The translations under genes were made by a program, and so were the position numbers. The notes beneath the pieces are model-generated. The model saw only the letters and a list, made by a program, of their open reading frames with translations. It was not told where the DNA came from and did no database searches. Shown piece after piece: positions 13,411-14,293 of a DNA stretch of 22,950 nucleotides. Numbering within the stretch: the stretch's first letter is position 1; each line of letters starts with the position of its first letter. This stretch comes from a virus, in the IMG/VR virus record IMGVR_UViG_3300042922_000164, positions 1-22,950 of that record, one strand, 5' to 3'.

Positions 13411-13458
13411 AAAACAAAAGAAGCACCGGCTGCTCTCGTTAGCGGCTAGTGCTTCTTC
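13411..13458 (-). terminator. Strong intrinsic terminator upstream of the late operon
   Basis: Minus strand: AGAAGCAC and GTGCTTCT (13449-13456 and 13419-13426) form an 8-bp outer stem around a GC-rich inner part, followed by TTTGTTTTATCC. It lies downstream of the tRNA-like element and upstream of the packaging and head genes, so transcripts that start at the 13.68-kb promoter would stop here unless they read through. Confidence 0.85.
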
Positions 13459-13467
13459 TTATGTGAT

Positions 13468-13515: not shown

Positions 13516-13628
13516 AACGTGGGCAAGGATTTGCACCTTGCATAATGCACCTCCGCACCGCTACCGGATTTCAGGTCCGGGCGTTTGCATCTTAATACCA
13601 TAGCGTCTACCTATTCCGCCACCACGTT
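13516..13628 (-). ncRNA. tRNA-like RNA element, noncanonical (Leu/Ser-type D arm)
   Basis: 113 nt on the minus strand. The ends AACGTGG and CCACGTT pair perfectly as a 7-bp acceptor stem. The next bases TGGCGGAATAGGTAGACGC are a textbook class II (Leu/Ser) D arm. Before the 3' acceptor strand is GCAAGG-TGCAAAT-CCTTGC, a T arm with 6 instead of 5 pairs and UGC in place of the usual UUC. Between D and T arms are 61 nt, nearly twice the normal length. They lack a good anticodon stem around ATTAAGA, while ATGCA / TGCAT and CCGGA-CCTGAAA-TCCGG pair internally. No CCA is encoded and the discriminator would be U. It could be a decayed tRNA-Leu, a tRNA mimic or a structured leader. A candidate promoter lies about 50 bp upstream and a terminator 58 bp downstream. 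Confidence 0.6.
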
Positions 13629-13679
13629 AACATATTTGGGAGTGCGTTGGAAGCTTCCTCTTAACTACCCCACACTACT

Positions 13680-13710
13680 AATATAACAAAATGAAACGGT
13701 AATGTGTCGG
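13680..13710 (-). promoter_or_regulatory. Candidate promoter upstream of the tRNA-like element (extended -10)
   Basis: Minus-strand TGTTATATT at 13688-13680 matches an extended -10 (TGnTATAAT with one change). A CCGACA at about 13710-13705 could be a weak -35, but the spacing of 19 is long. It lies just downstream of the ArpU-like regulator gene, where the late promoter is expected in phages with such regulators. The predicted start would be near 13673. Confidence 0.45.
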
Positions 13711-13725
13711 TAAATAAGCGGTAAA

Positions 13726-14178
13726 TTACACCGGAATTCGATCTAAAATCAGCTCAAAACTCACTTTTCCGTCCAAATTCTCGATTTCCGGCTCCTCAAT
13801 GAACTTGAGAGCGAGTGTAAGTTTTTTCAACGCCCGTTTGTGGATGGTGCGAACTGTCTTTTCGCTCAACCCTTTACGCTCTGCAATCTTCTCCAGGGTG
13901 ATGGTGTTTCGGTTCATATACTTCAACTCGATCACATCACGCTCGGAATCATCCAGCACATCAGCCACAGCCCCATCGATAGCCTGTACAACGCGCTTAT
14001 AGGCCCGGTAGTCCAGTTCACTGGGATAGGTTGTCCCTCGTCCTAGACGCGGCATTCTGGGTCCGTAGCCACCGCATCCGATGCCAATTTCCCCTTCCTC
14101 GTATGGGGCGATTCCGTTTGATACGGCATAGCGGTAACTGCGGTAATTTTTGAGCATACGGGTTACTTTCTCATTCAC
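13726..14178 (-). CDS. ArpU/RinA-type late transcription regulator (sigma-4-like)
   Basis: 150 aa from GTG at 14178, chosen because AGGCGGTGA lies before it and it nearly abuts the upstream 40-aa gene. An ATG at 14157 or 14238 is possible, but neither has a clear ribosome site. Residues 8-60 carry a Gram-positive-phage signature (MLKNYRSYRYAVSNGIAPYE; GYGPRMPRLGRGTTYPSELD). Residues 75-120 form a sigma-region-4-like helix-turn-helix (DDSERDVIELKYMNRNTITL; EKIAERKGLSEKTVRTIHKR). ArpU/RinA-like proteins switch on the late operon by acting at a promoter near their own gene and usually sit just upstream of terS. Here the terS block follows after the 370-bp control region. DNA binding is supported by the motif. 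The late-activator role is from the family and the context. Confidence 0.75.
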   Translation of the reverse strand: MNEKVTRMLKNYRSYRYAVSNGIAPYEEGEIGIGCGGYGPRMPRLGRGTTYPSELDYRAYKRVVQAIDGAVADVLDDSERDVIELKYMNRNTITLEKIAERKGLSEKTVRTIHKRALKKLTLALKFIEEPEIENLDGKVSFELILDRIPV

Positions 14179-14293
14179 TGTTTTCACCGCCTGTTTTGTA
14201 TTTCTTGAAAAATTCCCTCCACATCTGTTTTTGTTCATCTTTTTTTCGTTGTTCCTTGGCTATCTTTCGCTTCCATACATCTATTTTTTTCAT
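14171..14293 (-). CDS. 40-aa highly basic helical protein
   Basis: This short frame has ATG at 14293, GAGGG 9 nt upstream and TGA at 14171, so it overlaps the start of the late regulator by 8 bp. The sequence KKIDVWKRKIAKEQRKKDEQ and then KQMWREFFKKYK is a very basic amphipathic helix with about one third Lys and Arg. Such peptides may bind nucleic acid, but nothing specific is recognised. The good ribosome site and the overlap with the next start favour a real, coupled gene. Confidence 0.6.
   Translation of the reverse strand: MKKIDVWKRKIAKEQRKKDEQKQMWREFFKKYKTGGENSE

Follow-up and report, generated by a model that had tools for sequence, protein, structure and literature searches.

Widespread tRNA-like RNAs with exchangeable payload domains in phages of Gram-positive bacteria

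We analyzed a virus record of 22,950 base pairs (bp) (IMG/VR record IMGVR_UViG_3300042922_000164, positions 1 to 22,950; this whole stretch is referred to as the window), a phage whose terminase is closest to those of Bacillus megaterium phages (54% identity), and followed up a tRNA-like RNA of 113 nucleotides (nt) encoded on its minus strand, from position 13628 to position 13516. The RNA belongs to a family that is represented in hundreds of records of phages from Gram-positive bacteria, mostly without annotation and absent from Rfam, and that combines the arms of a tRNA with an internal payload domain. The fold, the family, the exchange of payloads between loci, and the genomic context are established by sequence comparison. 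The element is probably a real, nontranslating phage RNA and not a broken tRNA, and we lean toward regarding it as a phage gene for a stable tRNA-like RNA whose payload acts in trans.

Conserved fold and family membership

Read 5' to 3' along the minus strand, the element runs AACGTGG, TG, GCGGAATAGGTAGACGC, 61 nt, GCAAGG-TGCAAAT-CCTTGC, and CCACGTT. An initial annotation had described a perfect 7-bp acceptor-like stem, a D arm, and a 6-bp T stem with a UGCAAAU loop, and all of these are present, on the minus strand; the acceptor also pairs on the plus strand, yet the consensus of the D and T arms runs along the minus strand, and the plus-strand reading was rejected. Together with the tertiary-core bases, these arms are what the RNA retains of a canonical tRNA. 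It has neither the TPsiC-type UUC T loop nor the 12-bp acceptor/T helix, and a canonical anticodon arm (a 5-bp stem and a 7-nt loop in the standard place) is missing from the 61 nt between the D stem and the T arm. The lack of a good anticodon arm, which the initial annotation had also pointed out, agrees with the results of ARAGORN, which called no tRNA in the window, and of Rfam 15, which gave no match there, RF00005 included. At permissive thresholds, Rfam returned only chance matches over the locus, among them a 13-nt transfer-messenger RNA (tmRNA) match outside the RNA; the tmRNA model and tag peptide test gave no match over the RNA itself, and the Rfam models of ROOL and GOLLD gave none in the window.

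The single-sequence fold of the window RNA is mildly better than that of shuffled sequences (z = -2.0), which is little proof alone, and the proof is therefore comparative. When phage records were compared by blastn, short stretches identical to the D arm and the T arm appeared, mostly unannotated, in phages of Listeria, Enterococcus, Lactobacillus, Leuconostoc, Brochothrix, Bacillus, and Paenibacillus, and eight matched loci shared a common plan: a 7-bp acceptor stem differing in sequence, the D arm, a middle part of 0 to 134 nt, and a 6-bp T arm with a UGC loop. The same D and T arms were accompanied by different, compensating acceptor stems in many unrelated phages. Covariation, which had been proposed as a check, proved to be strong: in an alignment of 40 relatives from which the payload had been removed, the score was 0.701, compared with 0.168 ± 0.015 for shuffled and 0.06 to 0.10 for slid pairings, and both sides had changed at 12 of 16 core pairs. 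The bases that hardly vary belong to the core of a tRNA (in tRNA numbering, U8, A14, A15, G18, G19, U48, U54, C56, and A58), and position 55 is G in the family. Among the dissimilar members, the loop TGCAAAT was present in 118/125, the 6-bp T stem in 119/125, and the 7-bp acceptor stem in 111/125, and the acceptor/T helix measures 13 bp, versus 12 bp in an ordinary tRNA; a 13-bp helix of this geometry is also found in tRNA-Sec. A covariance model (R1) built from 42 relatives, with the window and its nearest kin left out, recovered exactly 13516 to 13628 on the minus strand (82.2 bits; E = 1.2e-18), and the scores of ordinary tRNA-Leu genes reached 41.6 bits at most.

Our sample comprised two pattern scans of viral contigs plus the loci found by blastn, and family totals are lower bounds. 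It contained at least 184 elements, at least 125 of them dissimilar, and the dissimilar elements numbered at least 180 after loci from a genome scan had been added. Among the matches listed, 84 of the 120 loci retrieved by the D arm alone contained the element; the remaining 36 included 11 ordinary tRNA-Leu genes recognized by ARAGORN, which constitute a natural control, and were otherwise mostly divergent or truncated members. An identical D arm does occur in some ordinary tRNA-Leu genes. D-arm matches at five loci (L031, L049, L081, L116, and L127) have a terminal T loop with insertions (GGTGAC...) and apparently form a divergent branch of the family. Two elements are present in each of L037, L217, L013, L105, and L202, in close tandem in the first two.

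Judged by record titles, the hosts are mostly Bacilli, with Clostridia next, and members occur in PSA, A511, SPbetaL6, Grass, phages of the phi3T/SPbeta types, EFDG1, LP65, a B. paralicheniformis plasmid, and pTEF1 of E. faecalis V583. The pTEF1 copy (L318:1434-1528) is a degenerate member situated between sea1 and a DUF5406 gene, which we take to encode a PrgU-type regulator, and upstream of the aggregation-substance gene; the T arm was matched by 134 Enterococcus plasmid records. In chromosomes, the strict pattern was found in only 1 of 399 additional genomes of Bacilli and in none of 390 additional genomes of Clostridia and is therefore not that of a housekeeping RNA. The discriminator base of 180 members is A in 99, T in 46 (as in the window), G in 18, and C in 17, and NCCA is encoded in 2 of the 180, whereas 50 of the 136 ordinary tRNAs that share these loci encode CCA; the UGC T loop was seen in 1 of these 136. 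Searches limited to open-licence papers found no description of the family, which may nonetheless have been described elsewhere.

Payload exchange and genomic setting

The payload has a median length of 72 nt in 125 dissimilar members, with a range of 0 to 229 nt. In 53% of members, the payload is closed by a helix of 6 bp or more that lies immediately 5' of the AT leading into the T arm; the figure falls to 17% when 3' strands are swapped between members. The window RNA has a helix-closed payload of this kind, formed by GATGCA and TGCATT and kept by compensatory changes in its two nearest relatives, L007 and L022; the central self-folding of ATGCA with TGCAT that had been noted earlier is this closing helix. 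A pseudoknot-like 6-nt match between linker and payload was present in 18 of 172 members (5.8 expected), and none was seen in the window RNA itself. A 5' hairpin following the D stem was too weak to be accepted as a family-wide feature (24 versus 12 expected), and an internal second T arm was rejected as a general one, being present in only 4 of 180 members, although 0.18 was expected. The payloads of L238, L092, L148, and L282 hold a second, canonical TTCRA T arm; a further motif, AACCACRGYGRAATAGCY, is common to L026, L128, and L112; and a subgroup recognized by eye (L259, L272, L299, L249, and L313) has a CTA-loop-TAG element after the D stem, with a loop complementary to the payload (for example, TCTCG/CGAGA, TATCG/CGATA, and ACACG/CGTGT).

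Payloads have been replaced while flanking sequences were kept, most plainly in L188 and L109, where the flanks are 97% and 100% identical and the payloads 10% identical; L167 and L158, and L048 and L042, are further pairs of this kind. The same payload was found with unrelated flanks in L023 and L006 and in L163 and L066, a class that comprises 62 pairs that are not independent, many of them repeating one Listeria payload. Payloads are, by these comparisons, replaced as whole cassettes.

The element of temperate siphophages is often located downstream of a gene for an ArpU/RinA-like late activator and upstream of HNH or terminase genes; at least 13 of 74 loci have a late-activator-like gene immediately upstream, as do PSA, phiFL2A, JNU_P10, BtpYZU01, and D6E. 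The lytic phages Lenus, LP65, EFDG1, A511, and Grass carry it inside tRNA clusters. All ordinary tRNAs within 500 nt of an element (56/56) are on the same strand, and the acceptor stem of L228 starts directly after the CCA of a tRNA-Lys, so that RNase P would be expected to cleave at this point. Since neighboring tRNAs share the strand and some abut the element directly, tRNA-type processing of the 5' and 3' ends is likely. An intrinsic terminator was detected within 300 nt downstream in 60 of 156 loci, versus 23 upstream and 26 antisense. The lytic Enterococcus phage EFDG1 encodes a complete, unannotated tmRNA (L241:2145-2492; Rfam, 140.6 bits; ARAGORN tag, AKNEELLAVA) that ends a few nt (about 2) before a family member, and a ROOL RNA in L066 (667-1248), on the same strand, ends 14 nt before the element. 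ROOL is also found on the strand of the element at L202:1831-2432 and L244:3862-4436, and same-strand ROOL is present in LP65. Integrase genes are neighbors in only about 2 to 4 of 74 loci. An 83-nt stretch at L202:2471-2553 matches the tmRNA model with 51 bits, its middle mostly missing, and is perhaps another shortened tRNA-like RNA; in a phi3T-SPbeta hybrid, 1.7 kb without annotated genes (L239:2461-4185) holds the element together with an Rfam DUF3800-VIII motif.

In the window, the order on the minus strand, 5' to 3', is activator gene, three repeats, TATATT, RNA, and terminator (Table 1). The initial annotation had placed a noncanonical tRNA-like RNA in a late control region, and the activator gene upstream and the R1 match bear this out; its candidate promoter gains substance from the evenly spaced repeats upstream of TATATT, and its candidate terminator, which begins about 57 nt downstream of the element, is real as a fold. 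Transcription may start near position 13673. Together, the promoter-like signals, the RNA, and the terminator appear to make up a small but complete transcription unit (about 260 nt), which is probably switched on by the late activator.

Table 1. Coordinates of the tRNA-like RNA, its parts, and the adjoining transcription unit in the window
Feature	Positions	Strand	Remarks
Whole tRNA-like RNA	13516..13628	-	113 nt, 5' end at 13628; exact span matched by covariance model R1
Acceptor stem, 5' strand AACGTGG	13622..13628	-	Pairs with 13516-13522; covariation at 7/7 pairs in relatives
Acceptor stem, 3' strand CCACGTT	13516..13522	-	CCA not encoded; TAAC comes next
U8 and G9 equivalents	13620..13621	-	Invariant, 114/114 relatives
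D arm GCGGAATAGGTAGACGC, leucine-tRNA type with A14, A15, G18, and G19	13603..13619	-	Near invariant
Linker 3' of D stem	13592..13602	-	Pseudoknot-like pairing with payload in some relatives
Payload domain replacing anticodon and variable arms	13544..13591	-	Closing helix 13586-13591 with 13544-13549
Central hairpin-like stretch CCGGA-CCTGAAA-TCCGG	13564..13580	-	Alternative pairing in minimum-free-energy fold; CCTGAAAT kept in L007 and L022
AT preceding T arm, T being the U48 equivalent	13542..13543	-	In relatives, T in 114/114 and A in 101/114
T arm, 6-bp stem GCAAGG/CCTTGC and loop TGCAAAT	13523..13541	-	Both-side changes at 5/6 pairs
ArpU/RinA-like late transcription activator gene	13726..14238	-	PHROG 36 and 248, E about 1e-10
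Activator-site-like repeats TTTACCG, TTTACCG, and ATTACCG	13697..13725	-	11-bp spacing; 0/300 shuffles
TATATT, -10-like box	13680..13685	-	Sequence
Candidate intrinsic terminator, 12-bp outer stem, then UUUUGUUUU	13411..13459	-	-23 kcal/mol, z = -5.1

Proposed function and competing explanations

If the gene encodes a stable nontranslating RNA with a payload that acts in trans, as we are inclined to think, it would be transcribed together with late genes or tRNA clusters, host RNase P and RNase Z would generate the 5' and 3' ends of the RNA, and CCA, if any, would be added afterwards. Stability would come from the elbow fold (U8-A14, A15-U48, G19-C56, and U54-A58), while the 13-bp acceptor/T helix and G55 would exclude the RNA from EF-Tu and from translation. 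The working part would be the payload and not the arms, and it would meet, in trans, a partner specific to the host or to the phage. The wholesale swapping of payloads between otherwise near-identical loci leads us to guess that this partner is one under arms-race pressure; that it is a tRNA- or RNA-directed defense factor, with the RNA as its decoy or inhibitor, is a tentative proposal that may well prove wrong.

Several points weigh against the trans-acting interpretation. The case for a stable, processed RNA and for its partner is built from sequence, the exclusion from EF-Tu is deduced from the geometry of the 13-bp helix and from G55, and payload turnover is the one observation that suggests an arms race. 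The proportion of core pairs formed in the 40 aligned sequences (99.2%) is, like the other pairing percentages, partly preselected, as the finder demanded at least 6 of 7 acceptor pairs and at least 5 of 6 T-stem pairs; pair-type variety and the slid-pairing controls are free of this preselection. The longest complementarity of the payload to the phage's own transcripts was 11 nt, compared with a mean of 9.6 and a maximum of 13 in shuffles, and an antisense action on these transcripts was rejected, as the match is within the range of the shuffles.

Processing punctuation and attenuation of the late operon are the main rivals. According to the first, the element would act in cis, as mascRNA, a tRNA-like RNA, does at the 3' terminus of MALAT1, with an RNase P cut at the acceptor stem freeing or trimming neighboring RNAs (ROOL, tRNAs, or late mRNA) and the excised RNA a by-product. 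Such a role would fit the members that directly adjoin tRNAs or a tmRNA, as well as the ROOL RNA that ends so close to the L066 element and the same-strand ROOL in L202 and LP65. A structured, swapped payload of 50 to 230 nt is, however, unneeded for a pure processing signal, for which ordinary tRNAs would suffice, and many members are solitary, with an activator gene on one side and a terminator on the other; we consider punctuation unlikely. Were it a regulator acting in cis on the late operon, the element would fold in the late leader and govern read-through of a terminator, as an attenuator or antitermination site. That many temperate phages have it between the ArpU-like activator gene and the late genes, and that a strong candidate terminator lies closely downstream in the window, would suit this role, but the five lytic phages keep the element in tRNA clusters, far from late operons, and a conserved pairing with the terminator as an alternative fold was not seen, although no search for one was made. 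We regard late-operon regulation as improbable.

A third possibility, which we find more doubtful still, is a nontranslating tRNA that is charged by leucyl-tRNA synthetase (LeuRS) and either donates leucine or blocks tRNA-sensing enzymes. The leucine-type D arm is identical to that of ordinary tRNA-Leu genes, and the UGC T loop recalls a staphylococcal tRNA-Gly isoacceptor, but LeuRS needs A73, whereas the discriminator is variable (A in 99/180) and T in the window, and payload turnover is left unexplained. It is very unlikely that the element is a DNA site, a hot spot of recombination or integration at whose conserved ends cassettes are traded: payloads are indeed replaced cleanly while the ends are kept, but conservation tracks RNA pairing across differing acceptor stems, which a DNA site would not need, and integration was ruled out on the scarcity of integrase neighbors. 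A decayed or interrupted tRNA-Leu (a pseudogene or an intron-bearing tRNA) would account for the match of the D arm, and phage tRNA genes do decay, but the decay suggested by the initial annotation is not supported, and this explanation is rejected as a general account, because the arms of at least 180 dissimilar relatives are held by compensatory change and the UGC loop is almost never present in the ordinary tRNAs encoded alongside; moreover, the noncanonical T loop and 6-bp T stem are conserved, no anticodon arm occurs in a consistent place, and the payload varies from 0 to 229 nt.

Relation to known RNAs and significance

The family resembles the small stable RNAs of phage T4 in kind and mascRNA in processing. 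T4 RNAs C and D (species 1 and 2) are also RNAs, of 119 to 139 nt, that adjoin phage tRNA genes, and RNA C ends in a tRNA-type T arm, but RNA C has a canonical TTCGAAT loop and no leucine-type D arm, and T4 infects a different host group; a search of the T4 RNA C/D cluster with R1 gave no match. We know of no function for RNAs C and D. MALAT1 mascRNA is tRNA-like, has no role in translation, and is cut by RNase P and RNase Z; it differs in being eukaryotic, about 60 nt long, and devoid of a payload. Ordinary class II tRNA-Leu shares with the family the 7-bp acceptor stem, U8, the D arm (in some genes), U48, and T-loop positions 54, 56, and 58, whereas family members lack the anticodon arm, have a payload for the variable arm, and possess a T stem of 6 rather than 5 bp with UGC instead of UUC. 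The staphylococcal peptidoglycan tRNA-Gly has UGC in place of TPsiC in its T loop and donates glycine. It differs from the family in having an anticodon arm, normal size, and a chromosomal rather than phage location. The isoacceptor has been described as poorly used in translation (PMC4810233). ROOL and GOLLD are phage noncoding RNAs of unknown function found beside tRNA islands (PMC12286853); they are about 570 nt or more in length and without a tRNA chassis, although ROOL adjoins some members of the family. In tmRNA, tRNA-like ends likewise enclose a non-tRNA insert, but there the D arm is reduced, and a tag reading frame and pseudoknots are present. The Bacillus cereus pseudo-tRNA tRNA-Other is a tRNA-like RNA that functions outside translation (PMC3399842); it was rejected for its Trp anticodon, and it flanks a chromosomal island and is of different origin.

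In summary, what had been a single odd sequence becomes a large RNA family, almost always unannotated, in well-studied phages and the pheromone plasmid pTEF1; the breadth of the family, its exchangeable payloads, and the 13-bp acceptor/T helix produced by the 6-bp T stem all go beyond the initial annotation. The result also serves as a warning that tRNA finders and Rfam overlook tRNA-like genes of this kind. It provides a handle on the old question of why stable tRNA-like RNAs that play no part in translation, such as T4 RNAs C and D, are carried by phages, and the payload swaps offer natural allele pairs at near-identical loci for direct tests of function. Speculatively, the family could represent an undescribed class of phage RNA whose tRNA body, shielded from translation by its 13-bp acceptor/T helix and UGC T loop, carries exchangeable effector domains. 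If this is true, the class would be an RNA counterpart of anti-defense cassettes, and it would span both temperate and lytic phages that infect Bacilli and Clostridia as well as enterococcal pheromone plasmids.
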